NCBI GenBank assembly: GCA_951799445.1
Contig: OX637296.1
Span: 11,284,001-11,348,000, forward strand
Reading direction: 5' to 3'
Source: Pseudisothecium myosuroides
Taxonomy: Eukaryota > Streptophyta > Bryopsida > Hypnales > Lembophyllaceae
Length of the DNA stretch: 64,000 bases
The position numbers and the translations under genes are program-made. Positions within the stretch are counted from its first letter, which is position 1, and each line of letters begins with the position of its first letter. Below, piece by piece: positions 1-55,170 of the stretch. The notes under the pieces were generated by a model. It saw nothing but the letters and a program-made list of their open reading frames with translations, did no database searches and was not told the origin of the DNA.

Positions 1-1579
1 ACCAAGCACGGATGGCCAAGTATCTACTCTGAGCCTCCTCTAATGATACAGAGTTCTTGTATTGTTTACAGAGGCGTCGATGCTGATCCTGCAAGTCTGC
101 TTTGATATTTGTCTTCGTGTGTTTCTCCAGTGATTGGGTCCAATGGAAAAGGCATGTCCTCTCGCGGTTTACCATGGGGATTGCTGGATCACCAGAACCG
201 TATACAACACGTACAGCATTCCAGTTTGCTTGAGCACTGTCTGCCATGAACCCTTTGAAATTTGGATTAGTAACACCGAGCCTAGAAGACACAGGATTCA
301 GATTCTTCCAAAACACTTGTTGAACTGCCACATCTTCAGATTGCATATCGCAAACCGCAATAGTCATGATGCGGCAGTATGTGGAGTCATAGACGTGACA
401 GGCCATCGTGGTCCAAGACTTTACCCGTTTGACATGGTCGAACATCATCCACGCGTTTTCCAAGTCCCCTCCGGGTTGCATACGCTTGACTAGGTCGACC
501 CCACTTCCGGAGCCTAGTTCCGCCATTTTGAAAATGAAGACCTTGTTAGAGTCCGCCCCTTGTCCCAGAAACCTGTTTTTCTGGATGAAGGCCCAATTGC
601 TGGACCCTCTCAGTTTGGTGATGCTATCTAGGACGCCAAAACGACAGAGGTATCTGAAAGTGGTTACCTCGTTCCGAATACTCGGAGATGACATTTGCTT
701 GAATTTGTCCAAGACCGGGATTAGTTCGTCAATGGCTAGAGTCTTCTGAGGAATACCTTCCGGGCATAGAAGTAATTTGCCAAGGTACTCCTTCGTCGCC
801 TCGAGGACAATGGCAGAGTTTGTCGCAGATGGAGCCCTTTCTATATGTTCTCCAATAAGACTACGGAGTTTGGCAGCTGATTCTCGACTATTTCCTTGTT
901 TCACAGGATGTGCATGGAATCCAAGATGGATACAGGCATGGGTCATGTGACTTGGGCCGTAAACATAATATATCTTTGCAGGACAACTATCTAAGCAAGT
1001 AGGCTTCACAAGACAGAGGGCACAGACGACAATAGAGTTAGATAGTGGATCAGATCTGGGAATGAAGGCAGAGGAGGCAAGACCTTCCCACTCAGTTTCG
1101 TTTGACGGAGACAAACGGTTGGGCCTACTTCCATATTCACAATCAGTATTATCGCAACGTAGATGTCCCAAGCAATTGGACAATCTGAATGAAAGTTGAG
1201 ATGCTGATTGGATATGCATAGTAGCCGTTTGAGTCCAAGCGTGTCCGTCATCCTTTTTATCCATGCCATGCAGTTGCCCAGCCTTTGTGGATAACGGATA
1301 CTTCCCCATTGGAGGGAGCTCGAAGATGATATCACCATTGAAAACAGGAGGCAGACATTCTACCTTCTCTATCGGAATTGAATTGTAATCTAACTTGCTA
1401 AGGATTGACCTAGCGCCCTTGTTGGTATTCAACTGGCGAAGGCAGTGGACGATACTCTCAGCAGGTGGCAAGGGAGGCTTAGAACTGGATGGACCTGAAC
1501 AACGGGAGGGACCTGACTCAAGAACGGAATGTGCGCGTACGACCGGTTGTGGGAGCACAAAATGTAAGGATAAGGTTAG
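1..1579 (-). CDS. MULE-like (Mutator superfamily) transposase, partial, runs off the left edge
   Basis: The minus strand is open for 526 codons from just after an in-frame TAA (1580-1582) to base 1, so the gene continues outside the window. The first in-frame ATG is at 1307-1309; the 90 codons before it look coding but lack an ATG, so an upstream exon or a non-ATG-containing exon start is likely. Counting from that ATG there is a Cys/His cluster (C52, C57, C96, C99, C105, C109, C126, H128, H132, H134) ending in ACIHLGFHAHPV, as in zinc-finger domains of MULE transposases. The catalytic core shows a first Asp in HVYDSTYCR (residue 308), a second in FMADSAQANW (357), then CLFHW (386-390), the C-x2-H that MULE transposases carry between the second Asp and the final Glu. 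The Glu would lie outside the window. No internal stop, so this copy may be intact. Divergent from the gene at 2214. Confidence 0.85.
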
Positions 1580-2213
1580 TTAGCTAAGGATATAAAAGAA
1601 GGAGTGAGAAATGGTAAAATTTTTAGCTTTTTACAAGGCTTAGATAGGAGTTTTACCAAAATTAAGATTTTTCCATTATAGGATAATAGTAAATAGATAA
1701 ATAGGTTAAGAAGGGGAAATTAGATTCCCTGATTTATCGAGATATCCGGAACCGGATACGGAACCGGTGGATGAATCTGGACTTGTTCAATATACCGGGG
1801 CCGGATATAAACATGTACCGGAGGATACCAGAGGATACCGGAGATCCCAGAAGAAGCCATGAGGGCAATTCTGCGATCCAACGGCTCTACCGGAAGATAA
1901 GGAAGACCGTTTAACGGTCACAATCCTCCGGGATTTCAGCGGGAACGGAAAACCCTAACGGCTGGAAAGCGGCTGGACGGGAGAGAAGACCCAGGGGTCG
2001 GATTTTCTTCTCTCACTTCTCAGTTGGAGGATTGTGGAGACCTTGGAGCGCTTGGAGTTGTTGTGTGGAGTCAGGTTGCAAAGAGAGAAAGAGCTCCGAG
2101 TTTCCCGGACCCGAGAGAGAAATAGGACTGGGAAAGAGAACTTTGCAGTTTTGCATTAGTGAGGGACTGTGTGAGGATTGTTTTTGAGGGTATTTTTTGG
2201 AAGTTTGAGTGCA
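1580..2213. promoter_or_regulatory. Divergent intergenic region between the transposase and the 611-aa gene
   Basis: This 0.6-kb spacer separates two divergently oriented genes and should hold both promoters. A TATAAAA string lies at 1591-1597 on the plus strand. Between about 1735 and 1850 the motif ATACCGG/CCGGATA recurs several times in both orientations, giving a GC-richer cluster that could be a protein-binding array or a transposon end. Neither has been tested; the TATA string is far (about 620 bp) from the plus-strand ATG, so it would imply a long leader. Confidence 0.35.
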
Positions 2214-4049
2214 ATGGTGAAGGGCGAAGGGAGCAGAGCTGTTACCTTGAAGTTCAAGAACCTTGTTCCAATCATCCCGCAAGATCCGGGTTACCGGAAA
2301 CAGTTGGAGGAAGACCTCGCGCAGATGGGGTGTGTGAACTTTCTGCAACGACCCTGGAAGCTGAGGAACGAGGACATGATCCGGGAGTTAACGAGGGACC
2401 AGTCGAACAAATGGGAAAAGACTTCCCGGGCGCTTCCCAGCAGTTGGACTATCAATACCTGGAAACGGGTATACGATTTTCCAAGACCGGGAGAGGGAAT
2501 GGCGTCCCGGACGCTCAAGTTTCATGAGGGTAAGTTCTCTGAAGCCCCTCATGGCAATGATGGGTACACCGTAGCAGATTGTAAGGATCAGAGGGAGAAG
2601 AGAGTATTAGAGTTCCTGCTCCCAATCCTGTACCCGGAACGGCCGACCAGGATTACATTAACCTGGGCCAACACGATATTTGGGGCACTGAGTGGAGATA
2701 GAAAGGTTTTCTGGGCTGGCATTGTTAAGGAGAGAGTGACCAAGATGGTCTCATCCTTAGGGAATACCAAGGCGACAGCAATAGGGCCGTTTATATTTCA
2801 CTTCTATGAGTATTTAGGAACTTTGAGAGGTCCGGAGAGAACTGCCTATAAGGCTGCCGCCACGTTCATGAAACTGAACATCACTCCAAAGGGAGAAGAA
2901 GAGGTAGAGGAAGAGAATGACGAGGGATCCGAGAGAGAATCCTCAGAAGAGGAAGAGGAAACCCCAGAAAAGATTCCAGCCTCAGAGAAGAAGAAGGGGA
3001 ATAAGAGTGAGGAATCCCCGGATAAGGAAGGTCCCTCAGATAAACCGCTGGGTAGAATCATTGAGGATCTGGAGAGGCTCAGAGAGGAGTTAGATGTGGA
3101 GAGAAAAGCAGTCAAGAGTGCGTGTGGGCTGCTAGGGGGAATAAACACATCTGAACTCGCTAAGAGGATTGAGGATTTACTTCGGGATAGAGAGAACCGG
3201 AAGTGGGAATCCCGGGTTAAGGAATTGACTGAGCAGAACCAGGAACTAACCCGGGAACTTGAGGAGAGTAAAAAGGGGAAGAAACTTTCCCCAGAGGCTG
3301 AGGAGACCCTCCGTAGAGTTAGGGCTTTTGTGTCAAATTCGGGGAATGTGATTAACAAGGCCAAATTGTTCGATGAGGGGATCCATAAGGCCGGGTCAGA
3401 GGCAGCAGTTAAGTCAGTAGAAGTTCTGGCTGAGTATTCCGATGTTACGGAGAAGTTCATGTTCGAGATCCGGGATGTTCTTCAAGAATCGGGGTTGTTC
3501 AAGGGTTCCAAGAAGGTGCCCATGTCGCCCCCAGCGAATGTGAAACCGAAGAGTAAGCCCAAGGAAGAGAAAACACCCGCAAAGGAAACCCCTAAGCGGA
3601 AGTCAGAAGGAGGAGAAGGATCAGGGCATGGATCCGGTTCCAAGGAGAAGACCCGAAAGTCCAGATCAGAACTAGGGACACCCCCGAGCAAGGATTCGAA
3701 GCCATCTCCAACGATGCCCAGCACCACGAAGAAGAAGACAACACCAAAAAGAGGAAGGGAGGCAACTTCTGCTAGTTATCATTCAGAAGAAGGCGAGTCG
3801 CCAAGTAACTCAGCGAAGGAGGGCAGCCAGTCGGGATCCGGTTTCCAGTCCGAGTCACATCCGGGCTCTGAATCGGAAGAGGATACAAACATGGAGACCA
3901 TCTCGCCTTCGCAGTTCAAGGGTAAGACGGCCTCAGCAACAAAGGGGAAGTATCCCAAGCCGCCCAAACCATCGCCCAGCAGGAAACAGCCAACCCGGAA
4001 AGGAGCTGTCAAGTTGGAGGCACCTTCTCCGAAGTGGCAGAAGAAGTAG
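2214..4049 (+). CDS. Transposon-associated coiled-coil protein, 611 aa, function unknown
   Basis: ATG at 2214 is the first good start; the frame is open slightly further upstream but only through a TTG. Residues 1-220 form a folded-looking region (WANTIFGALSGDRKVFW near its middle, then IGPFIFHFYEYLGTL), a pattern I associate with plant transposon-linked hypothetical proteins resembling plant-mobile-domain or gag-like modules; this assignment is from memory of the style, not a search. Residues 223-275 are very acidic (runs of E and S), 279-360 contain heptad-like charged leucine repeats (EDLERLREELDVERK) suited to a coiled coil, and 430-611 is a Lys/Ser/Pro-rich disordered tail with basic segments that could be nuclear-localising. 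Uninterrupted. It diverges from the MULE-like transposase 0.6-0.9 kb away, so it may be an accessory gene of the same element. Confidence 0.75.
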   Translation: MVKGEGSRAVTLKFKNLVPIIPQDPGYRKQLEEDLAQMGCVNFLQRPWKLRNEDMIRELTRDQSNKWEKTSRALPSSWTINTWKRVYDFPRPGEGMASRTLKFHEGKFSEAPHGNDGYTVADCKDQREKRVLEFLLPILYPERPTRITLTWANTIFGALSGDRKVFWAGIVKERVTKMVSSLGNTKATAIGPFIFHFYEYLGTLRGPERTAYKAAATFMKLNITPKGEEEVEEENDEGSERESSEEEEETPEKIPASEKKKGNKSEESPDKEGPSDKPLGRIIEDLERLREELDVERKAVKSACGLLGGINTSELAKRIEDLLRDRENRKWESRVKELTEQNQELTRELEESKKGKKLSPEAEETLRRVRAFVSNSGNVINKAKLFDEGIHKAGSEAAVKSVEVLAEYSDVTEKFMFEIRDVLQESGLFKGSKKVPMSPPANVKPKSKPKEEKTPAKETPKRKSEGGEGSGHGSGSKEKTRKSRSELGTPPSKDSKPSPTMPSTTKKKTTPKRGREATSASYHSEEGESPSNSAKEGSQSGSGFQSESHPGSESEEDTNMETISPSQFKGKTASATKGKYPKPPKPSPSRKQPTRKGAVKLEAPSPKWQKK

Positions 4050-5389
4050 CTAGGTAGTTACTTGAGTTGACCCTAGCATGGTTAGTATTAAAACTCAAGT
4101 TTTGGATAAGTAGGAAGCTATTAGCCAGCTGCTTTTCAGTTGGATGAACCTGGACTTCACTTTCCGGGTTTTTAGGATCTGAGATCCACATTTTGCGGAT
4201 CGGCGGGGTGTGGTAGGAAAGTCAACGTGGGAAGGATAAGGGGAATGACAGGTGTCATTCTCTGGTCCTTTCCTTTTGATTCCCAGGGGCCTTTAGGGTT
4301 CTCTGGGTGTTTGGTATTTAGGGGGCTGATTTTGGTTTGAAGCCCCGGGCATTCTTATGTATATTTTTCAGTACTCTGTAAATTGATTTCAGATTTCCAC
4401 TTCGCAAGTACTGGTCTGAAAAGTCTCACTCTGTGTTGGTATGCCATCAATGTGTTAAGCATTGGTAGTGCGGGTAGCTGGTTTGCAGGTGTTGGAGAAG
4501 AATAGATGACCCCCGGATTCTGTCTGATCCGGTTCTGGGAGTATTAGGAGTTGGTTTATGAAGAACTAGCATACTAAGGGGTAGTTTCATCTGCCGATTT
4601 TCCTTGAGAGTCTTTTGAGTGAGATAGCCACTCTTAGATTGGGTGAGTTCTTTGGGTTGGAGTACGAATGCTAACCGACGTTTGATGAGGTCTTGCTGTT
4701 ACCGGAAGATAGGAACTGGAAAGTAGTTGGGATCCTTTAGTTAGTTGGTACTAGCTCTGCTCTGGGAACTACGTTTTGGCAGAGTCTGTCGTTGTAGTAA
4801 GTGGGATAGTAGGGGTTTCCTGAGTGACCTTCTTGTCTGGAGTAACTTCCCGGATCAGTTGTGAGGAAATACTTGCCTTCCGGTTTTCTTTGTTTTCTTT
4901 GTTATTTCTCTTTTAGTGGAACTTCAGCCACTTTAAACCAGTGGAGGGTAGGATTTACGTGTCCTTCCTTAAGTCCAAGAGCGGAACCCTCTGATGTAGA
5001 GGTTAAACTATACCATTGGTTACATTTGCTTGCTAGGTCCGGATCCGGGAAAGGTACAGGATTAAGACACTCTTTCCGGTTCTATGTTTAGCTAAGCCGG
5101 ATACTAAGTTACTGCTACTATCGTGAAGGAATGCCAATCTATTTCTTGTTGATTGGTAATATGTTTGAGAACTAGGCTTATACAGGAGAAAGTTAACCAA
5201 ATACAGATCGGGAAATCTAGCTCTACATTTTATTCCCGGATTCTGTTTGTCTTTGGTTTTGTGTTCCGGATCCTCTTCCGGTTATTTTGAGAATACTACT
5301 AGTTGAAATCCTGTGGGAACGATACACGAGTCATCTTAGGTGTTTTTGCGCTAGATTAACACTTAAAGGGGGATTTGTGCTTTGCTGTG
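4050..5389. other. Gene-free 3' flank of the 611-aa gene
   Basis: No frame here looks coding. The stretch is moderately GC-balanced and has many scattered CCGGAT/ATCCGG words (for example near 4855, 5040, 5090, 5270), which also occur in the spacer at 1735-1850. That shared vocabulary suggests both flanks belong to one element, but no long terminal repeat or clear terminal inverted repeat could be picked out. Confidence 0.4.
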
Positions 5390-5863
5390 TTACGACACTG
5401 GTTGTTCTGCAAGGTCGGGAGCAACGAAGTTAGGCGTGGAAAGGATGCAGCCACTATCAGAATCATCGCTGAGAACAAGGACTGGATCATGGACATGCTC
5501 TAATTTAATATTTCGAAGAATCAGGATAACCTCTGATGTTACAGAAGAACGTCTAGGAGTACAGTCGCCCATACTTTCTTTCTTTCTATACACGCGATAG
5601 TTTCCGGGTGACAAAGACCAAACCTCACCGCCCGAAGAGTCACTTGACATCTGCGCTACGATGTGAGAGACCTGCCTCGAGACTGGGTTAAGGACGTCCA
5701 AATCCAAATGCAAAGTACCTTCCATAATCCAAAACCGCGACGCCAAACAAGAACCAATAACTCTAGCGAAGCCATCCTCCTCCACAACGAAAGAAATAGG
5801 CACTGTTGGTCCATCTCCTCGAATTACAACCGCATTGGTGATGGCATCCTCCAAGGTAGACAT
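5390..5863 (-). CDS. Hypothetical protein, 157 aa
   Basis: The ORF reads from an ATG at 5861-5863 (MSTLEDAITNAVVIRG) to a TGA at 5390-5392; the frame is also open for 14 codons upstream through a TTG. I do not recognise the family. The sequence alternates hydrophobic and charged residues like a beta-rich globular protein in the first 110 residues, and ends with an acidic, serine-rich tail containing LVLSDDSDSG, a possible SUMO-interaction-like string. No internal stop, no signal peptide, no membrane segment. It converges on the 611-aa gene 1.3 kb away. It could be one exon of a longer gene or a chance ORF in a decayed transposon. Confidence 0.4.
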   Translation of the reverse strand: MSTLEDAITNAVVIRGDGPTVPISFVVEEDGFARVIGSCLASRFWIMEGTLHLDLDVLNPVSRQVSHIVAQMSSDSSGGEVWSLSPGNYRVYRKKESMGDCTPRRSSVTSEVILILRNIKLEHVHDPVLVLSDDSDSGCILSTPNFVAPDLAEQPVS

Positions 5864-6702
5864 CACAATCCTAATTCTTGAGGAGACCCTATAACAAACA
5901 TGCAAGCTCAGCGCAAAACCAGGACCAGGTAAAATCTAGGTATTGTACTCATAGAGTAAGTAAGGTAGAGTCCAAGGAGTACGTCAATATAGAGTACCCA
6001 TTTCATAACTAAAGACGTCGACGCCATGTGGTAGTTCATTAGGGCAAAAAATACTAAACCAAACTTCGTTGTACATTTATTTTTTAATGAGTATCCGTCC
6101 CCAGTTACAGTAAAAAATGCCGGAGCCGTGGACTGTCAAGGATGATTTCTTGGTGTTGTAAGACTTATAATGAATGAATTAGACTGCATATTAAAAGTAT
6201 GTGTGGTCGGAAGAGCCGACCTTTACTTTATTTTTTATGCTCCAGAGGAAATTAGGAGCCCAGAGGTTCGCAAGTACTTTTTCTTGAATTCGATGAATTG
6301 TCTTTGGACAACCGTCAATTAAAGTGTCAGTATACTCAAACCCGAAAATTGCAGGAGTGACGAATTCCGCAGAATGGAAACTTCCTCCATGACATAGATC
6401 GCCATTTTGAACGAGTTATGACGGCGCAACGGGTTAGTATGGACTGACCTGTCAGTCATCATCTTCGGCCCGCTGGAATGGAATGACGCCATTAGTGTTT
6501 CTCACTGGAGCTTTAAACCTGTAATCATCCGTGCTTGTTGGTATGTTTAAGGGGATTAGCACCCCGCCGGGCTGCGTAATATAGTCTTTATGGCTCAAGC
6601 ACTTGAAATAATACGTAAATAGCTGTAATGATACATAAATAGGACTAGGGTAATTAGTATTGCGGGGAGCAGAAATGACATTGAATTCCTGCATCCTTTA
6701 GA
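5864..6702. other. Gene-free spacer
   Basis: AT-rich, with no convincing coding frame. A short perfect stem (GTCGG then CCGAC) occurs near 6208-6221. Nothing else was seen. Confidence 0.4.
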
Positions 6703-7027
6703 ATGCCAAAGAGACAAAAACGACGGGCTCTGTATTTTACAAACCCGAAGCGCCTAAAGAGGTCTAGGATCATGAGGGAGTTGCGATCAAATGCTAGGAT
6801 TGCAGATGCAGGAGAGATTGTTAGAGTCCTGGAATTTGCCACCGCAGAACCATCAGTGAGCATAGTGCAGGTTCCTCCTCCAGGTAGCGTCACAGATATT
6901 GCAGAGGACATGATGCAATGAGGACTTCCAAAGAATACCACCCCAGTTAGCAGCGGAAGCGGGAGTACACCTGATGAGAGTGCTGGAGTTCGCGAAACCG
7001 GACCAAGTAGAGAGACCACGTCGCGAG

Positions 7028-8537
7028 GTAATGTGCCGATTAAATTATTTGTTCGTCTTATAGCATCATTGTTGGTGTTCCTCATGGTAATATAACAGGT
7101 ACCTTGTGCATTGAGTAGAGGGACTAGCCCATAATCTGAGGTTCATGTAATGATCAAGTCTGTGTGGTCTTTATCATGTCATTGCGAAATCAGTGCACGG
7201 AGAGTCACTAGAGGATTCACAACTTTGCAAAGAAAAACAGATGGGCTGTGAGTTGCGTTTTCTGTTTATTGGGGGACGTCGAGATTGAGAGCTTCAGTTG
7301 GGCGGTCCGACTGACCCGTTTGCATCTACTCGGAGGGCAACATTGTAAATTGCGAAGCATCAAGCGCGATTGACACTGGCATCTCTCGTTGGCTTGCTTG
7401 CTGGCTTGCGTGCTGTTTTCGCTTCATTTGGAAATGTGGCTTGCGTGCTGGTTTCGCTCCATTGTCTCCATGCTGTTTATCTCCGTTGTCTCCGAGCTGG
7501 TTTCGCTCCGTTGTCTCCGTGCTGGTTCCTCCCCTTCCGGAAACCTCTTCGCTGGTGGCTCGTGGATTCGCTCTGTCTCGTGACTTCATCCTACTATCTT
7601 CAAGCTCATTTTGCAACGTTTTGCTGGCGAGTAATCAGGTTCGCATTTTAGATTGATTCTCTCCTTCATGCTGGTTTCGCTTCAATTAGTGTTGCTTCGG
7701 TCCCTTGGCTTGCTTGCTGGTTTAGATCAATCAATTTTGCGTGCTCGTTAGCTATGTTGGCTTGCTCGATTAGAGTTTAGCGGTTTAGGATTTGCATTCG
7801 GGTTTAGGTCCGTTGCCTTGTGCATTCTGGTTTTCCCTTGTGGCTCCACGCTAGTTTTTTTGCTCCATTTTGCCCGTTTGCACCGATCGCAAAGGGTTTT
7901 TTTCTCCGATCGCTCCGTCATGACCATGCTAAGTCGCCCCGTGCTTAGTCGCCCAGTGCATTCTCGCCCTCGCTCGGCTTGCACATTCTGCTTGATATGT
8001 TTTGTGCTTAATCTAGTTAATCTGGTCTAGGAATTAGCACCAATCGCTCGTCCCGGTTGGCTTCGTAAACCCCGATTCTGTTCTTCCCGATTTATTTTGC
8101 GCCGTTCGCCCCGGTTGGGCTGCTCGCCCCGTTCCCCCGGTCTCTCTGTTCTCCCATCGACTTCTTCTCCCCGGTTGGCCCCACTTGCCCCGACTCGCGC
8201 AGTTTGTCCCGTTTGGCGTTGCTCCCCGACTGGCGCAGTTCGTCACCGCGCGCCCCACTGGCGCAGTTCACCGCGGCACTCTGTTTGCACTGGTTGGCGC
8301 CACTCCCCCGTCTCACCCTGCTCCCCCTCGTCTCTCAGGTCGCCCCATTCCCCGTCTGGGTATTCACCCCATTCAACCCGTCTCTGTTCTCTCCGAGTTG
8401 GTTTTCCTAGGGTTTCTATTTTCTGTCTAATTAGGTCTTCAACACCGATTCTGCACCCTTGTACATTTGCTGGACGTCTTGTTTAGGGTTTCGTAATCTG
8501 TTCCTAGACTTACCACAAGAATTGTCTGTGGTTGCAG
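7028..8537 (+). other. Probable 1.5-kb first intron of the methyltransferase gene, low-complexity
   Basis: The donor after CGAG at 7027 and the acceptor TTGCAG before 8538 give a phase-correct join, which is the only evidence that the exon at 6703 belongs to the gene downstream. About 7370-7570 contains imperfect tandem copies of a 20-30-bp unit around TGCTGGTTTCGCTCC. About 8080-8360 is pyrimidine-rich with repeated CGCCCC and CTGGCGC words. An alternative is that this is the promoter and leader of the methyltransferase gene and the 6703 exon is unrelated. Confidence 0.4.
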
Positions 8538-8683
8538 GACACGAGAAGATGCCAGAGACATCCGAAACCACGGAGTGCACGGAGAAGACATGCACGGAGA
8601 CGGAAGCCGTGAATCCTCCACAAGCCACGCAAACGGAACGAGGTAAAGCATGAAACTTTCCTCGTTATTTTCCAAACAGGAAA

Positions 8684-8745
8684 ACGCAAGCACTCCCTTA
8701 GAGGGAGTGCCGCTATCGGCACTCCCCCTAAGGGAGTGCTTGCGT
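8684..8745. repeat. Near-perfect 62-bp hairpin
   Basis: Two 28-bp arms with one mismatch and a 6-base loop (GCTATC). The arms end in ACGCAAGCACTCCC. Each arm is itself partly palindromic (CTCCCTTAGAGGGAG), so more than one fold is possible. It lies in the intron between exons 8538-8642 and 8932-9009. Confidence 0.9.
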
Positions 8746-8757
8746 TGATGCAATTTT

Positions 8758-8809
8758 AGCACTCCCCTAGAGGGAGTGCCAATGTCGGCACTCCCTCTAG
8801 GGGAGTGCT
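8758..8809. repeat. Perfect 52-bp hairpin, sister of the one at 8684
   Basis: Two identical inverted 23-bp arms starting AGCACTCCCCTAGAGGG flank a 6-base loop (AATGTC). The arm sequence is nearly that of the neighbouring hairpin, so the two look like tandem copies of one foldback unit. Half-copies of the same unit (GGGGAGTGCTGTTTTGC) follow near 8858-8875. Confidence 0.92.
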
Positions 8810-11235
8810 GTTTGGCATTGTCGTGCTGTAGGATGTGTTTCGCATTGGCGTTCTCAAGGGGAGTGCTGTTTTGCATCTGAGATGGCGTTCTCTCAACTTG
8901 AGGTGGCGTTCTCATATTCTCAATTTTTCAGGTGAGACGGATAATGTGACTGATTCTGGGAGAAGGGAGGGGCTACAGTCTTCGTCGCAGCCAGAAATTC
9001 ACGAGTCGGGTGCATTTTCTTGACAGCCTGACATTCTCAAATATGGTTTATGGGGGTTTGGTTGTTTGTCTGGCTTCTTGATAACGAAGTTCTTTTGCAG
9101 AGGAAGAGGGTAATGAGGATGTCGAGACATCCCAGGACGCCAACGAGGCTGAAAAAGCCAAGACGGAGATGACTGCAGAGGAGCTCGGGGTGGAAATGGA
9201 CAAGATGGTTGTGCGGGAGTCAGCCAATATCAACATTGTGTTGGACAAGCTCCGTTTCAAGCCAATGGAAAAGTCGAAAATGAACATCCTGCTCTGTCGT
9301 ATGAAAGCTCTGGCTGCTGTTTGCCCATACCTAAAGAACGACGTCATGGCACTGGGCGCACATTTTGTAAGCACTGGATATATGGACGGCCATGGTGTCT
9401 TTTATGTCACCTTGCAGGACAACGAGGGCAAAACATGAGACGTGATGAAAAAGGATGTGGCCTCCTGGACTCCGTTATGGGTTGCTGCAAACAACAACTT
9501 TGAAGAGGAGCTGCAAAAGGAAGACTCGTGGAAGCAATTCTCGGGGAAAATGTTCTTCGTCTGGGATGGCAACCATCGGCTGGCTGCCTGGCTGCCGATT
9601 ATCAACAGAGACCACGGGGATGATCCGTCATAGCATTACGCGGTTGAATCAATTGTCTTGGAGGTTGAGGGTCAGATCGGGCCACTTCTCACCGCGCTGC
9701 ACCAAGTGAATTGGTAATCCACGAGTCAGAGACCTTTCCTCATTGTGTTTTATTGCGAGTTGTATATCTTTCTCTAGTTCTAACTTTGATTGGCTTAAAC
9801 AGGAGAAACCAGACATGTCACGTGAAGTTAAACCTGGTTCACAAGCTATACTGGCTTCAGAGTATAGCTGGTCAACCCCTGTCCTACTTCGAGAATCTAG
9901 TTACGAAGGAGGAAGTAGTTGATGCCCAAAAGAAACAGAAATCAAAGACTCGGACTTGGTACACCTTGACGCTTGACGGGCTAATTAGCATCCTCTATCA
10001 GGTATGGTATTGTTATGTTTTTCAATGATTCTATATGCAGTTGATTGTTATGACCTCACAACTTTGCATTTGAACTTTGCTGAATTGGAATGCCGATATC
10101 GGCACTTGCTGTGTCTGTTCTGTGAGTTAGCTTTAACATCAGATTAGATTCCTAATTGCGTGTTCATTGTCTTGCAACAAGAGCTAGGTGACGCAATAGC
10201 TCATGCGACCAGGAGATTCAAGGAGAAGTATCCGGAGAAATCGAGTGAATGGACTACTAGGAAGCTCTATGATGCCATTGGGAAAGCTGTTGATAAAGTG
10301 AAGAAGGATATGTCATCTGATGTGAAGAAACAACTTCCCATTGCTGATCCGAGGCAAACACCGCAATTCCTGGAGCAAGTTCGCATTCACTATGAGAATC
10401 AGGAGGACGATCCAGAGATGTCGCAGGAGAAGTTGTGGTATCTTTCAACCTCGGCCATGGACCCGGCAGTGAAAGTGAAGTGGCTGGAGCGGTGGAACAA
10501 ACCTCCCTTGCTTCGGGAAGCTATGAGGTTCCCAAAAACCAAGTTTCCCGATCACGCTTTTCCTGAATGGCTTCACAAAGCGACTTGGTGGGCTCAAGTA
10601 ACTTCATTTACCTTTTCTTCTTTTTCTTGAATTTGATAATGGACCCGTCAGAGTTGTTACTGACTCCCTATTACAGTTGGCTACTTCTGTGTAGGAACTG
10701 TTCGATGCGGCTCTGTCTGAGCTGGATGTCACGATCAACTATCAACCAAGTGGTGAAAGTCCAATTCCTAGCATCGTTGATTATGTGGAGCAAAATCGCA
10801 TCCAGCTTTGGGATACTGCATTCCCCCATGAGTTTGATGGCAAAGGAGTTCACAAGAATCATCCTCCAGAGTTTCAAGTTGGTCTGGACCAGGCTGTTGC
10901 CAGAGTTCTCTATCGATATTTCAAGTTCGTGCTATACGCACGCAACGCCACGTTGAAGTCGCCGTCGTTCTTCCCAAGCTACTTGGACAGACGTGCCGAC
11001 AATTGCATGATATCGGATGAGATTGCCAAGAAGTGGAAGAAGGAGCACTGGGAAATTTGTGGGTGGTACATTGAATGCCCTCTGAACAATCCTCCTCCCT
11101 TTGAGATCGATTTAAGGAACAAGGTGCAACCCGATTTATCGGGGTTGAAGACGGTTCATGAGACAGCGCCGCCGGAGGCTCCTGCAAGGAAGACAAGGGG
11201 ATCAAAGAGGAAGGCCGAGGAAGAAGCAAAGAAGA

Positions 11236-11505
11236 CACTATAAGAACCCCCCGTTTTAGGTGGCGAGCCCTAATTTTTTATGACAAATTTTAGGTGATGT
11301 CAATGTTGACAACCTAAAAATTTTATGTCAACAAAAATGTACAATGTAACATCAATGTTGACATAAAAACATTAGATTGACAATATTGATGTTACGTTGT
11401 ACATTTTTGTTGACATAAAATTTTTGGGTTGTCAACATTGACATCACCTAAAATCCGTCATAAAAAATTAGGGCTCGTCACCTAAAACGGGGGGTTCTTA
11501 TAGTG
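11236..11505. mobile_element. 270-bp CACTA-type miniature element (MITE) in a coding exon
   Basis: The element begins CACTATAAGAACC and ends in its reverse complement GGTTCTTATAGTG. It is an almost continuous palindrome over its whole length, with arms of about 125 bp. It is flanked by a 3-bp duplication AGA (11233-11235 and 11506-11508), the size typical of CACTA transposons. Removing the element and one AGA rejoins the methyltransferase exon in frame (KKKSASNAAATQESD). Insertion length plus duplication is 273 bp, a multiple of three, but the element brings a TAA at 11241-11243. It has no coding capacity and would have to be moved by a CACTA transposase elsewhere. Confidence 0.96.
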
Positions 11506-13457
11506 AGAAGTCTGCCTCCAATGCGGCGGCCACACAAGAATCTGATGCATTGGCCCATGTGAGTACAAGGAGGACTGCTGGACAGACTGCACATACATTG
11601 CCGGACGTGGATACTGACATGGAAGTGCTGGATGTGGTTCACCCCCCTCCTCCGCAGACTAGTCCAGGTGGTGCTCGGAATCCTCATCTACCTGCTCTTC
11701 ATGCGCTATCGAGCCCGCTTTCATTTGCTACACAGAAGTTGAAGAACATGGTCACTTCTCGCAAAGCAACTTCATCATCAGGATCTTTCCTTCACTCCCT
11801 AGTGTGTGTTCAAAATTCTAGCCTGTTCCAGATTATGGAGGCTCTTCCTGACGTGCACACCTGCCTCGAGACTGTCAACAAGTTTGTTCTCAAGGTTTGT
11901 CTTTTCAATCACCAGTTACCCTTATGCATTATCCGTCATTCACCTGTCTGAGTTATGGTTTGTTGCTGTTTTTATGCCTTGCCAGTCCATTGTTTAGAGT
12001 CATTGCCAATGTCGGCACTCGGGGTTTCTCCTTCAGTGTCCAAGTTGCGTTCTTGGGACAGTTGTTTAGTTCTTGAGGCAAATTGGATTCTCAATGCATT
12101 TGTGTTATGCCATTCTCACCTAATGGATTCCATCCTTTGTAATGTCCAGGTCAAGAAAGAAGACGGTGCCAAGGCTTTGAATAAGTCTTGTCCGCATAGT
12201 GGCTTTGATTTGATTCTTGGCGATCTTAAAGATGGCCTCTGGGTTCTGTCCATTTCAGTGAACCCTGGAGATGTCCCTACCTGGAATGAGTACTCTGAGC
12301 AGGGGACTGAAAGTGTTTTCGAGTTTGCAGAACATTTTCTTCACGGTGCGGGTGCGATTCTGTTGTTTGTCCCAGATGTTCCACGGATCCGGACTGATGT
12401 GCTGTCGTATGCAAACGGCTACAACTTCATTCTGCATCGAGAGTGGTAGGGAATTAATGACCTACGTTGTGCATCGTGTTACAACGCAACAAATAAGGTA
12501 AATATTGTTTCGAATTTTTTTTTGGAATCATTGGATTGGAGTCACTGGATTGTAATTTACATTCTACCTGTCCTAATTCAATTTCATCGCAATCTCCATT
12601 GACAAAGCAGAGGATTCCGGATTCAACTCTTCATTCACCATGCCATGGATGCTAGCAAATTCACGATAGCGGCCGATGAATCACTTGTAGAGTTCGGAAT
12701 GGGAGTTGCTCAATCCGATGTGTTATTCAATTTCACTTCCGCGGCCTCTCAATCCATGAATGGATCTGTTCCTTGGAGAGGCGCCCGTGAGAAGGATCCA
12801 GTTTTCCTTCAAATGCTGATCGAGGCTTTTACCAAGCCGGGGTCCATCATCCTTGATGCATTTGCTTCTCTTGGTGAGCACTGCTTTCTCTTGTGATGAA
12901 TTTTTCTATCATTTTTTTTTGTCATGTCCTAAACTAAATTTCTTCATCTACTTCCAGGTAATTCTATTCGAGCTTGCAAAGGTATTGGACGACACATTGC
13001 GGCCCTCAAAGACAACGTCGTGATCTTCAGGGCTAAGTTGCAGCAGTTCCACCAGGTTGAAGCTCCAGCTCGAATTCAACTTCCCGCTTCTGACAATCCA
13101 CCAGAGATTTCACTGGACGTCCCTATTCGGCAGATCACTAAGAAGAACAGATTTAGTAAGTAAGTCTCGTGATTGATCCTAATATCTTTCAGTCTTCTGT
13201 TCATGGCCTACAATTTACTAATACAAACTCATTTGGCCAGAGTGATCACTCTCCTCCGATCTCCGCCCAAAGACTACTTTATGGCGCCGTGGGATGCAGG
13301 CGTCGCTATGTTGCAGGCGGCAGAATCTTCTACACCCTCCACGCGTAGTGTTAGAAGTTTTCGCAGACGTGTTTGTCGTTTTATTGATGACGAGGCAGAC
13401 GTTGATATGGAACCAAGACCAGCATCTTCTGGCAGTTCTTTGACTTTTACATTTTGA

Positions 13458-14224
13458 TAATTTAAATATCACTCGGATTTATTGTTTGAGTTCTTTTCAC
13501 CCAAATACATGTTGTGTTTCTATTTGTAATGTTCACCATCTATTTATGCTGATGTAATGGTTCATCTTAGCATCCATTCAAAGTGCAATTGAATTCCGCC
13601 GATCACCTGAATTATATCAATTCATCAAAGTCTTTCTTGCTTGGGATACGGTTTTGGTTTAGGTCTTATGGTACAATCCGCAACAGGTCAGTATTTCGCT
13701 GAAAACACAGAGGAATGCATCGCATGCACATCAATTCAAAAGTAACAAAATGGTCCATGCACAAATATGCACACCGTGAGCATAACAGAAGTCTCATATT
13801 CATAGTGCTGCATCTTCTGTGCTCCACACATATTTATGGCAAATTAAACGAGGCTGTCATGCACACCTTCTCAACGTATATACACTGTCTTCAAATAGCC
13901 GATAAGACATGGTGCTCTTCCTACTAGATTTGTACATAACACTTTGCGCAAACTAGATCGATGCCTAAGAAGCGTTAGGGAACTACATCGATCCATCAGG
14001 AAACTAGATCGATCCATCGGGAATTCTTCAATTCGTTTTTGTCTGCATTCAAGAGGCAGCCAACAATGTTTTCAATGGAGAATTTTTTATGCAGTTTCTT
14101 ACGACAAAGTGATAAGTATTACTCTTTTTTGCCTTTACGCCTACACTTGGTGATCACACACACCACAGCAGTTGTAGCGTTGGAATTTAATATTTCTCTT
14201 CTACGTCGTCCTAAAATTTTGCAG
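13458..14224. other. 3' flank of the methyltransferase pseudogene
   Basis: No convincing gene. Between about 13949 and 14020 there are three imperfect copies of a 25-30-bp unit containing AACTAGATCGAT(CC). The remainder is unremarkable AT-rich sequence. Confidence 0.4.
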
Positions 14225-14225
14225 G

Positions 14226-14440
14226 CACTGTGACATCAGCATTTGGACAGATGCAGCCGAAATATTCTCGGACCGAGAGCCAAAACATAATGTCCGTTTT
14301 GCCTGGATGTTTGCTGTTATCAGAATTGGGCAACCAAAAATTTCAACAGTTCTTGGCATCTCCCATTTTTCAAAAACTCTCGATGTCGTATTGCAGGGAG
14401 GGCTTTCCTGTTTCCAATAAAGAACTCTTCCAGCTATCTC
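14226..14440 (+). pseudogene. Coding-like fragment of unknown origin
   Basis: After a good acceptor (TTTTGCAG) one frame is open for about 65 codons and reads like protein (DISIWTDAAEIFSDREP, then RFAWMFAVIRIGQPKIS and SKTLDVVLQGG) before a TAA. No partner exon or family was recognised, and another frame is open over the same stretch. It may be the relic of a transposon gene or simply chance. Confidence 0.2.
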
Positions 14441-14780
14441 CAGAAAAAACGATGAATGAAAACCCGTCATTGTCCAGAAGATTCACCGCTATTTTTCTGT
14501 GCGTCGTCCAAAAAGTAGACGTCGACCCGCTTACTGGTTAACGCACTCACAATATAATTTTTATGAATGGATGCTCTCAGAGGACATTTCATTCTTGTTG
14601 ACGATTATCCCTAAATCCTCAATAATTTTCAATTTTTTTTTTTTTTCTAGACACACTCATGTTTGTAGTTTTTTAAAGAATATGAAATGGTTCTATTTGG
14701 ATTAATGGTGTGATAATATTCTAAGAAACCTTAGTTTATTTTTATGCTCTTTTCAGGTGGCGTCACAATGTCAACGGCTA

Positions 14781-14862
14781 CAGGGTAAGAACGGCCATTC
14801 GATAACAACGGCCATAGGATAACAATAGCCATTGAGTATCCACGGCCATAAGATACCTGCTC
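14781..14862. repeat. Short tandem repeat, about 17-bp unit, four to five copies
   Basis: Imperfect copies of AACAACGGCCATAGGAT follow one another, with the core CGGCCAT or TAGCCAT at each step. No coding sense. Confidence 0.7.
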
Positions 14863-15439
14863 TATTTATTCAATGAATTATTTTTGTTTACCATTTAACC
14901 ACCCCGTGCTGCCTATTACCATGGTCAATCCTTTCTCACATTCAACCACACTCATGGCTATAGGGCCTTACTATTGTAGATCGGTTTCTATTTTTAACTT
15001 TTGTTTTGCTTACATATTATCTCCTACTTTTACTTTTGTAGAAAATGCCCACTTTGGGGGTCCCAAGGCTCGCAAAAGTACGCTCACCGCTCTATGCTCT
15101 ACGCTCCCCGCTCGCAAAATAGCATCGTCCATTCCACACAAGTCTCTTTTTTCCACACAAGTCTCTCTCTTAGTATTGTCTCCCGTCAATTTATTCTCTT
15201 AGTTTGTACTCCCTCTCTTTTAGCAAGCTTCCATTTCTAAGTTTATTTTATTTTCTCCAACAAATATAGTTCCATTTGGAGCAATCCTTTCAAAGATCTT
15301 TAATTTCAGTTATTTAGCCCTTTTGCATAAATTTTAGCTCATTTAGTACCTTGCTAAAAAATCTAGTCCTAGCATGCCCAACCAAACCACTTGACTTCTG
15401 ACTAAGCCCTAGCCATCCCATTATTCCCTATTTGCTACA
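14863..15439. other. Gene-free stretch
   Basis: No supported gene. A pyrimidine-rich patch near 15100-15190 contains CACACAAGTCTCTCTT-like direct repeats. Confidence 0.35.
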
Positions 15440-33761: not shown

Positions 33762-33785
33762 GTAGTCCATTTCCACTCGGGAGCT

Positions 33786-33857
33786 TCCGTTGCCGGGACT
33801 CGAACCCGGGTCGCTCGGGTGAGAGCCGAGTATCCTAACCATCTAGACTACAACGGA
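33786..33857 (-). tRNA. tRNA-Glu (anticodon CTC)
   Basis: The minus strand gives a full 72-nt cloverleaf: acceptor stem TCCGTTG pairing with CAACGGA, A box TAGTCTAGATGG, anticodon loop CTCTCAC with CTC, and B box GGTTCGAGTCCC. It has no intron and no encoded CCA, as in eukaryotic nuclear tRNA genes. All stems pair, so it looks functional. It decodes GAG. Confidence 0.97.
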
Positions 33858-34844
33858 GCGGCTCCTGAACACGACCCCTTCAGTCCACGAAGGACGTGGA
33901 GAAGCAGGCGCCCAGTCAGCCACCAGATGCTGCGATTCTCCACTGCAACGTATTTAAAGAACTATCACTTCTTTTGTTCTAGGAAATAGAAAGCAGTCTG
34001 AAACCGGAAGCCCATCGAACCGGAAATCGGAAGATCAATCACCAGAAGTGATTTTTTCGGCTTCGGGCTTTTCAATCAACAGGCGTGACAAAATTGCACC
34101 ACGATACAGGCTATCAGTTTACGACCCACACTTTCAAACGAAATCTACGCTTTCCTAAGGCGAAATCTGTGGGACTCCACTCACACATCTGCTTCTAGGA
34201 ACCCTAAACCTCCACATGACACAGCCAGAAATCACTAGCAAGGGGTGCAGGCAGTTTTAACGAAAATGACACATCCTAGTGACATTGATCCTAATCGCCC
34301 TGTACGCAAACATCAATCACAATTCCAGCGTAGACTTCCATACGGCACCACTTCCACACTACCAAAGTTCCAACCGAAGGCAAACCTCCGATTCCGGTTG
34401 TCCAGACAACCTTAGCAGACCAAAGTAGTCTCCACTGACACGTTTCAGTGAAGCATCCGGACGCACAAAACCTAAATTGTTACGCTACTCTCTTACCACT
34501 CGAAGTAAAACCCATTGTCCAAGCATGCACACCGACGAATACGTCGGTCACAGCCTGAAAATGCAGCTGCGCTTGTAAGTTAACCAGAGTGAGCCCCAGG
34601 ATGTCGACGACGACGGCGATGCCAGTAGCTGCTGCACCATCGCCGCAACAGTTACAGATCGAAAAGAATTGAACTTAAGCTGACACCAAACTCATTCAAG
34701 CAGCCCTCGAGCCGGCCTTGTGTTGGTGTTGCCCAGTAACCCGAAGTGGGGTCTCTAGAATTTACTCAGACTGCCATTAGATATCAGTTTAAATATGGTA
34801 TTGTAACTCTCGCTCACCATCTGGGACGACTGTCCCCTTGGATT
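33858..34844. other. Spacer between the two tRNA genes
   Basis: GC content is higher than in the surrounding desert, yet no frame looks coding on either strand. A GTCGTCGTC-type triplet patch lies near 34603-34620. It may contain an exon or a decayed gene that I could not identify. Confidence 0.35.
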
Positions 34845-34926
34845 GTCGCTTTGGCCGAGTGGTTAAGGCGTGTGCCTGCTAAGTACATGGGGTTTCCCCG
34901 CAAGAGTTCGAATCTCTTAGGCGACG
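34845..34926 (+). tRNA. tRNA-Ser (anticodon GCT)
   Basis: An 82-nt class II tRNA: acceptor stem GTCGCTT with AGGCGAC and discriminator G, A box TGGCCGAGTGG, anticodon loop CTGCTAA with GCT, a long variable arm (TGGGGTTTCCCCG), and B box AGTTCGAATCTC. Intronless and without encoded CCA. All arms pair. It decodes AGC/AGT. Confidence 0.97.
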
Positions 34927-34957
34927 AGTGAGTGTTACCTGAACTTGCGACATCCTC

Positions 34958-53682: not shown

Positions 53683-54205
53683 AAACTTCACCCCTGAACC
53701 TCAAATGTACAGAATCAACCCCTAAAACCTAATGTCGAGATTTAACCCTACACCCTAAATGCCCAGAATAAAACCCTAAACCCTACTTGTTCAGAATCAA
53801 TCCCTAAACCCTGCTGGTCCAGAATAAAACCCTACACCCTACTTGTTCAGAATTTATCCCTTAACCCTACTTGTCCAGAATTTATCCCTAAACCCTACTT
53901 GTCCAGAATATATCCCTACACCCTACTTGTCCAGAATTTATCCCTACACCCTACTTGTCCAGAATTAACCCTAAACCCTACTTGTCCAGAATTAATCCCT
54001 AAACCCTGCTGGTCCAGAATAAAACCCTAAACCCTACTTGTCCAGAATTAATCCCAAAACCCTGCTGGTCCAGAATAAAACCCTAAACCCTGCTCGTCCA
54101 GAATTAATCCCTAAACCCTACTTGTAACCCTACTTGTACAGAGTTGAACTCTGAACCCGTACTTGGCCAGAATTAGACCCTAACCCTACATGTCCAGAAT
54201 AAACC
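53683..54205. repeat. Minisatellite of 29-30 bp with telomere-like CCCTAAA
   Basis: About 16 imperfect copies of a unit such as CCAGAATTAATCCCTAAACC followed by CTACTTGT or CTGCTGGT. Each copy contains CCCTAAACCCTA or a variant, so it resembles the plant telomere repeat alternating with a short spacer. The first and last copies are the most degenerate. Confidence 0.92.
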
Positions 54206-55170
54206 CTAAATTGCAGCTTTCAAAAATCAACAAATTTTGATCATAAACCCATGAGATCTTTTTCAATAACGATGGTTTTTCATTTCCAGGTATGTTATTC
54301 AAAAACGAGAAAAATGCATATGACAATAAGGATTACCACATCAGAAACACACACAATCATCGCGCTTAACTCCCGTAACCCCTGAAGGAAATCAGCTGCA
54401 AAATGACAGGATCAAATACAGTACCTTCGGAAGAGATGTCAAACGGCTCCTCGTATGGAAGATATAATATCACGCAGGTGATTAGCTAGAAGCTGGAAAC
54501 GTAGAATCCGTTACATTGTCACCAAAATTAAGCAGCAGTTCGAGCAACAATCTCATGTCTTGTGCAAGTCGCTTTGATTGCGTATAGAAGACCACGTGAG
54601 TGGCCGATCACCCGGAGAATATGCATCCACCGGAAAATGGTTCACTGGTACTGATAGGCCAGGCCATTGCAATAAAAATTTAGGGGCAAACACTCTTGGA
54701 TCCAATCTGCACAAATCAATCAAATTGAATGAGTACCATCAAGTCACAAAATGAGCAAAACTGTGTGCTAGCACTGGCTTTTCAGCGCATGCAGTTTTCG
54801 AATTGAATTAGAAGGATTGTGGTCGTTGCTATGACTGATCATAATTGTTCCGTTGTAAAAAGCATGGTATACAGTATCGTGCTGAAATCCTTGAAACTGT
54901 AAGGTAGAGGCTCCATTGGCCATACAGGAGAGATTTGATTTGATTGTGAAAATACTTAATCTATTGACGCTTGGTTATCCTGCAATTTGTTTTGTAGCTT
55001 AACACCAAAAAAAAATTGCAAAAATTTAGTTTGTCGGGAAAGGTTAAAAGTTCACCTGTATGGTGAATGGAACCTCTCCCTGACTGTATGGTGAATGGAA
55101 ACTACACATTAGATCATAGCAGAACTGTAAATAAGCGAGGACTGATCGACTGGCAACCTACTTTCGTCAG
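54206..55170. other. 3' flank of the ARM-repeat gene
   Basis: No gene was supported. A 13-bp phrase (TGTATGGTGAATG) occurs twice at about 55057 and 55086, close to the end of the ARM gene, and will fall in its 3' untranslated region if that extends about 100 bases. Confidence 0.4.

Follow-up and report, generated by a model that had tools for sequence, protein, structure and literature searches.

The question raised by this locus is how a gene of apparently bacterial design, in which a ParB-like motif is joined to a region resembling a DNA amino-methyltransferase, comes to be present as a multi-exon gene in a plant genome, and whether its product is likely to methylate DNA. The locus lies in a window of 64,000 nucleotides from the moss Pseudisothecium myosuroides (GenBank assembly GCA_951799445.1, contig OX637296.1, positions 11,284,001 to 11,348,000); the term window denotes the whole of this stretch, and coordinates are given within it. 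A reading made from the sequence alone had proposed a decayed, spliced gene, belonging either to a mobile element or to a domesticated family, that carries its own DNA methyltransferase. The explanation considered probable here is that a DNA transposon is present, in a decayed copy, and that its passenger gene encodes a protein with a likely ParB-like domain and a likely methyltransferase-derived domain, the latter predicted to be catalytically dead and putatively serving as a DNA-binding module.

The gene is carried by a DNA transposon

A search of the genome (388 Mb in 222 contigs; the window is G000 C10:11284001-11348000) with exon F of the gene (12150-12497) returned 150 scored matches among 267 candidates, three pairs of rows within the 150 being split pieces of single copies. 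Thirty-three matches, that of the window included, show at least 86% identity over nearly the full query, and the others include a group near 60% identity and many at 29-44%. Nine close copies were taken as 20-kb stretches and 15 diverged copies as 1.6-kb pieces. Alignment from end to end of three copies (c1a, c2 and that of the window), together with additional left flanks of three loci, revealed that homology between copies breaks off at the same sequence on the left and on the right. All three start with (T/A)GGGGATTGCTATTT and finish with AAATAGCATCGTCCA, have imperfect terminal inverted repeats of approximately 57 bp, checked at both ends, and are flanked by perfect 8-bp target duplications, namely CCATGCAA, TCCAATTC and, for the window copy, TTCCACAC. 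The unit so delimited is a DNA transposon with inverted-repeat ends, and the gene is its cargo, or passenger. Target duplications of 8 bp are made by the hAT, P and KDZ superfamilies, among others, and those of Sola1 elements are 4 bp in length.

The left end of the window's element lies 2,662 bases to the left of base 1 (G000 C10:11281339) and the right end is base 15131, such that 1-15131 is the portion of the transposon inside the window, with TTCCACAC on both sides of the complete element. The right terminal inverted repeat, imperfect and of approximately 57 bp, occupies 15068-15131 on the minus strand and is followed by the target duplication at 15132-15139. The window copy measures 17,793 bp, later insertions included, against 13,224 and 12,859 bp for the other two copies. 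Counterparts of bases 1550 and 5397 adjoin in all five of the fetched copies that cover this part, the intervening sequence being missing from each, indicating that 1551-5396 entered the element later and that an open frame at 2-1579 is part of the element proper. This 3.8-kb insertion, which has short similar sequence at either side, holds an intact frame of 624 amino acids (2175-4049) for which no significant Pfam match was found. A further insertion-like stretch, at 13651-14544, is replaced by approximately 140 bp in nine of nine copies.

The frame at 2-1579 lies on the minus strand, measures 588 amino acids between stops when the left flank is counted in, and is common to the copies; in copy c2 the opposite-strand frame reaches 750 amino acids. 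From its position, and from a pattern of D and C-H residues discerned by eye, we infer that the opposite-strand gene encodes the transposase, an assignment weakened by a Pfam search in which these transposase-like frames found no match. Elsewhere in the window, between 21685 and 25828, a broken series of long plus-strand frames also has a transposase-like appearance by eye, and again no significant Pfam match was found.

Structure and decay of the passenger gene

The passenger gene occupies the plus strand. Its exons A to I span 9103-13457, all borders being GT-AG and the phases compatible throughout, with the exception of the F-G junction, where the frame slips between 12497 and 12612; together they encode approximately 1,060 amino acids. 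Exon A (9103-9713) carries a DGNHR motif and is ParB/sulfiredoxin-like by motif and layout. It is followed by exon B (9803-10001), by exons C (10184-10597) and D (10695-11235), which are without known domain and are kept in the copies, and by exon E (11506-11894), a linker rich in P, S, T and A. Exon F is likely methyltransferase-derived and has GDLKDGL at the place of motif IV, whereas exon G (12612-12873) holds the motif I region, DAFASLG, in which a glycine codon is split by the intron; the methyltransferase-derived domain ends in exon H (12958-13159), and exon I (13241-13457) is the final exon and carries the stop. A possible first exon, also on the plus strand, at 6705-7028, with a stop at 6919-6921, lies in DNA common to copies of the element; a protein relative of it was sought and none was found. 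Tandem-like repeats of a CTGGTTTCGCTCCGTTGTCTC-type unit occupy 7389-7732, presumably within the first intron or the promoter region.

The window copy of this gene is decayed. In-frame stops are present at 9436-9438 and 9631-9633 in exon A and at 12447-12449 in exon F, in addition to the F-G slip, and exon D is interrupted within its coding sequence by a 270-bp foldback insertion (11236-11505), with a 3-bp AGA duplication and ends that are presumably of the CACTA type. The foldback insertion is missing from all nine close copies fetched.

A protein search with exon A returned 49 proteins (E 1.2e-88 to 4.0e-24), representing 304 member sequences. Thirty-nine of them extend to the end of the exon, where 19 stop, 19 continue with Y and one, P0017, continues with F, so that 38 of the 39 fit the outcome expected of a GT donor after TG|G. 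Only two relatives of the methyltransferase exons were found, P0050 and P0051, both metagenomic; P0051 reads through introns at seemingly matching places, the motif I intron included. A near-full-length protein query found no relative among the 7,987 best candidates, which were scored, and exon-sized queries did find relatives; the failure is likely due to eukaryotic genes being stored in the database as exon-sized pieces. Scans of viral contigs and of prokaryote genome contigs yielded no relative at the sensitivity used. In tblastn searches against phages the methyltransferase part matched 286 records at E≤10, with an E of about 0.3 for the best of the matches listed, and the ParB exon matched two lysin records at E 5.

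The GT-AG exons, the protein relatives and the 150 genomic matches bear out the earlier proposal of a spliced gene that joins a DGNHR exon to a beta-class-like domain. Its decay and its residence in a eukaryotic mobile element, which common flanking ends had been expected to define, are likewise confirmed by the lesions, inverted repeats, duplications and numerous copies described above.

The DGNHR domain

Motifs of the DG(N/H/Q)HR type are a mark of ParB/sulfiredoxin-like domains, and the DndB family is one that bears DGQHR. The DGNHR of the window's exon A corresponds to WDGNH in 41 of the 49 relatives, to WDGNY in three and to WDDNH or WDRNH in two, the motif not being found in the remaining three. 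Across the 34 longer exon A relatives, 66 columns show conservation of 90% or more, and the window matches 62 of them; in a tree it clusters with P0001 and P0002, with support (94/79) below the starred level. The motif, the layout around it, with a helix-G-strand ahead of DGNHR and a strand behind that by eye are consistent with ParB, and the domain pairing published for algae together suggest that the domain is ParB-like.

No ParB profile was matched in the libraries tried, Pfam and NCBIfam included, or in PDB, and a profile comparison of the DGNHR region with phage ParB proteins gave an E of 0.24, no better than the 0.18 of the reversed control. These results speak for the alternative that the N-terminal domain is not ParB-like, with DGNHR being a chance motif of an unrelated domain. 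Such an explanation is nevertheless considered unlikely, given the retention of WDGNH across most relatives, the agreement in layout, a weak match to DndB by two of 40 relatives (best E 0.0059), and the report of the same domain pair in algal transposons (PMC12477816).

Loss of the catalytic motif in an apparently constrained sequence

Four libraries agree on a single stretch, that of motif I, in matching the second domain to DNA methyltransferases: NCBIfam PRK13699 (E 3.7e-4), Pfam N6_N4_Mtase (E 0.0017; 18.7 bits against a cut-off of 26.7), a PHROG DNA methyltransferase (E 0.0026) and CcrM in PDB (E 0.12). Alignment by hhalign with six DPPY-bearing phage ParB-methylases gave an E of 7e-4 (score 31.7, probability 26%), as against 0.11 for the reversed control and 0.71 and 0.24 for two crossed controls. 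The order of motifs, IV before I, is as had been read from the sequence, the place of motif IV being in exon F (12150-12497) and that of motif I in exon G, where the motif I-like, beta-class stretch is divided by the 12873/12958 intron. Kinship with MT-A70 was set aside, none of the library matches being to MT-A70 and those to methyltransferases being to DNA methyltransferases.

Several results detract from this kinship. The library matches fall under curated cut-offs and are confined to the motif I half; P0051, queried by itself, gave E 0.019 against Pfam; a profile of three sequences (A2) found no methyltransferase in PDB; the structure models of both domains were poor, with predicted local distance difference test (pLDDT) values of 49 and 46; and Foldseek searches with both models returned nothing at E≤0.001. 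Profile support, to which the sequence-only reading had looked, is partial, being weak and under the cut-offs for the methyltransferase and without any match for ParB.

The place of motif IV was read in 27 sequences, comprising the nine close and 15 diverged genomic copies, the window, P0050 and P0051, and thereby a minority of the 150 genomic matches. The motif (D/N/S)PP(Y/F/W), which includes DPPY, NPPY and SPPY, was present in none of them. All nine close copies have DLKDGL at this place, and the 15 diverged copies have DLKSGL, DVPEGL, DVPKGL, DVLEGL, DIPDGL, DMPEGL or DIPENL; P0050 and P0051 conform, the latter at motif I also. At motif I, D-x-x-A-(S/A)-x-G was found in 21 of the 22 copies aligned through it, a count that leaves out two copies whose alignments end before the motif, and the exception, c1b, deviates at both motif ends. 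The absence of motif IV extends to copies of 31% identity in exon F, indicating that the loss reflects more than decay of the window copy. The methyltransferase-derived domain is predicted from these residues to be catalytically dead, and the proposal that the element carries its own DNA methyltransferase is not upheld, as regards a working enzyme, by the 27 sequences.

Constraint on the coding sequence was assessed from ratios of nonsynonymous to synonymous substitution (dN/dS), calculated by the Nei-Gojobori method. The ratios, which are pooled over non-independent pairs and carry no interval, were 0.32 among the nine close copies (exon A 0.29, C 0.44, D 0.26, F 0.40 and G 0.30), 0.16 for the window against those copies (0.15 for exons F and G together) and 0.26 between two diverged groups. 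Their weight is lessened by saturation of synonymous sites between the 60% group and the close copies, and by stops in the tested exon pieces of five of the nine close copies (four with one, one with two), the latter indicating that many copies are decaying too. Selection appears to maintain the passenger coding sequence, and the protein is likely to be one in which a methyltransferase domain has turned into a constrained pseudo-enzyme.

The same data bear on the possibility that the passenger is an active N6-adenine or N4-cytosine DNA methyltransferase with an unusual motif IV, marking the transposon's own DNA. Its relatedness to the beta class, the low dN/dS found for exons F and G, the retention of one motif IV proline in many diverged copies (DVPEGL) and a suggestion published for the algal relatives (PMC12477816) would all accord with activity, but 27 of 27 sequences have lost the aromatic residue of motif IV and a GxG form was absent from motif I wherever it was read, making an active enzyme improbable. 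It is highly improbable that the gene belongs to a domesticated host family merely located among transposons, since low dN/dS and numerous diverged subfamilies would suit that idea but in three of three copies, at unrelated places, the gene sits inside a unit that has common ends, inverted repeats and a target duplication; the idea is disfavoured for the close-copy subfamily, to which the comparison of ends was confined.

Intron palindromes and possible function

If the passenger is, as preferred here, a transposon-borne protein with a dead methyltransferase-derived domain, that domain would act as a DNA-binding module, the fold having perhaps been retained for binding DNA or S-adenosylmethionine as opposed to methyl transfer. 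The protein may bind the DNA of its own element, perhaps at palindromes in the introns, and such binding could aid transposition or escape from silencing.

Four sites of the form TGCC-N6-GGCA are present in the window, every one in an intron of the passenger gene and given here on the plus strand. The palindrome-like sites TGCCGCTATCGGCA (8708-8721) and TGCCAATGTCGGCA (8777-8790) are followed by a perfect palindrome, TGCCGATATCGGCA (10091-10104), in intron B-C, with the identical word at the matching place in eight of nine copies, and by a second TGCCAATGTCGGCA (12004-12017) in intron E-F, with a similar site at the matching place in one of nine. Four of nine copies have such a palindrome in their left part. 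The expected count for the window is 0.57, and four or more sites arose in one of 100 shuffles, the pattern having been picked after the sites were seen and those at 8708 and 8777 sharing one local repeat. Three spaced 17-mers equally alike arose in none of 60 shuffles, one shuffle being a single mismatch short, and the longest exact repeat by itself was matched by three of 200 shuffles. Telling against a role in binding are the palindrome's absence from all 15 diverged 1.6-kb pieces and the presence, in the fetched stretches, of three such sites that fall outside the element, two of them in c6b and one in c2. The intron palindrome is a weakly supported candidate binding site. A further proposition, that a ParB-steered pseudo-enzyme binds its own palindromes as a eukaryotic counterpart of ParB/parS, protecting or mobilising the element without methylation, is speculative and must be considered doubtful.

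An intron hairpin is also present at 8689-8809, formed by 52-nt inverted repeats of GCACTCCC units, with between 0 and 4 palindromes nearby in the nine copies.

Other features of the window

Two protein domains elsewhere in the window, one PIFI-like (E 1.1e-11) and the other a plant U-box ARM repeat region (E 4.5e-11), by themselves suggest a plant host. The window additionally contains a tRNA-Glu (CTC) gene on the minus strand (33785-33857) and a tRNA-Ser (GCT) gene on the plus strand (34844-34927). At 53706-54210 a 28-bp unit containing CCCTAAACCCTA is repeated in tandem, in a manner that recalls interstitial telomere-like repeats.

Relation to known systems and significance

The closest described counterpart is the Ectocarpus transposon Sola1-1_Ec32, with a ParB-like and DNA methyltransferase passenger of 1104 amino acids (PMC12477816); that paper also points, by way of Iyer 2011 and Petroll 2025, to similar genes in transposons of green and red algae, and such passengers are proposed to bind and modify the DNA of their own transposon. 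By description, Sola1-1_Ec32 and the moss element have in common the domain pair (a likely one in the moss), a similar protein length, a gene opposite the transposase (a putative one in the moss) and residence in a large DNA transposon. They differ in host group, and the moss element has an 8-bp target duplication and is without motif IV in the copies read. As a class, ParB-methyltransferase transposon passengers are not new, having been described in brown, green and red algae (PMC12477816).

Phage ParB-methylase fusions, such as AcaML1 gp25 (L001), resemble the passenger, as interpreted here, in having a ParB-like domain before a beta-class methyltransferase with the order IV-I. Six of eight fusion-type phage proteins, of 409-445 amino acids, have both DPPY and D-x-F-x-G-S-G, whereas the moss protein is more than twice as long, is encoded with introns and has a middle region without known domain. 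In Rhizobium phage RHph_I4 (L010:1565-2897) a ParB-like gene adjoins a separate putative DNA methyltransferase gene, the pair being unfused. A Bacillus cereus ParB-methylase fusion is reported to have nicking activity (PMC5512222). DIRS1-type elements, which carry a catalytically inactive N6-adenine methylase, are like the moss transposon, if its predicted inactivity holds, in being mobile elements with an inactive methylase domain, but are retroposons with a tyrosine recombinase, ParB not being mentioned in the available text (PMC3537659). The bdelloid N4CMT and a Marchantia N4-methylcytosine (4mC) methyltransferase cited with it resemble the passenger, as interpreted here, in being of the bacterial amino-methyltransferase type in eukaryotes; N4CMT differs in its SPPY motif and demonstrated 4mC activity, and ParB is not mentioned in the available part of that report (PMC8885841).

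New in the present case are the family of elements and its predicted loss of catalysis. The moss family was not found in the literature searched, most subscription papers falling outside it, and may already be in print. With more than 100 genomic matches, a catalytic motif that is gone in the copies read and a coding sequence that appears constrained, the family raises the question of what role a methyltransferase fold may have without methylation. The ends of the element, its target duplications and candidate binding sites are now defined for experiments.

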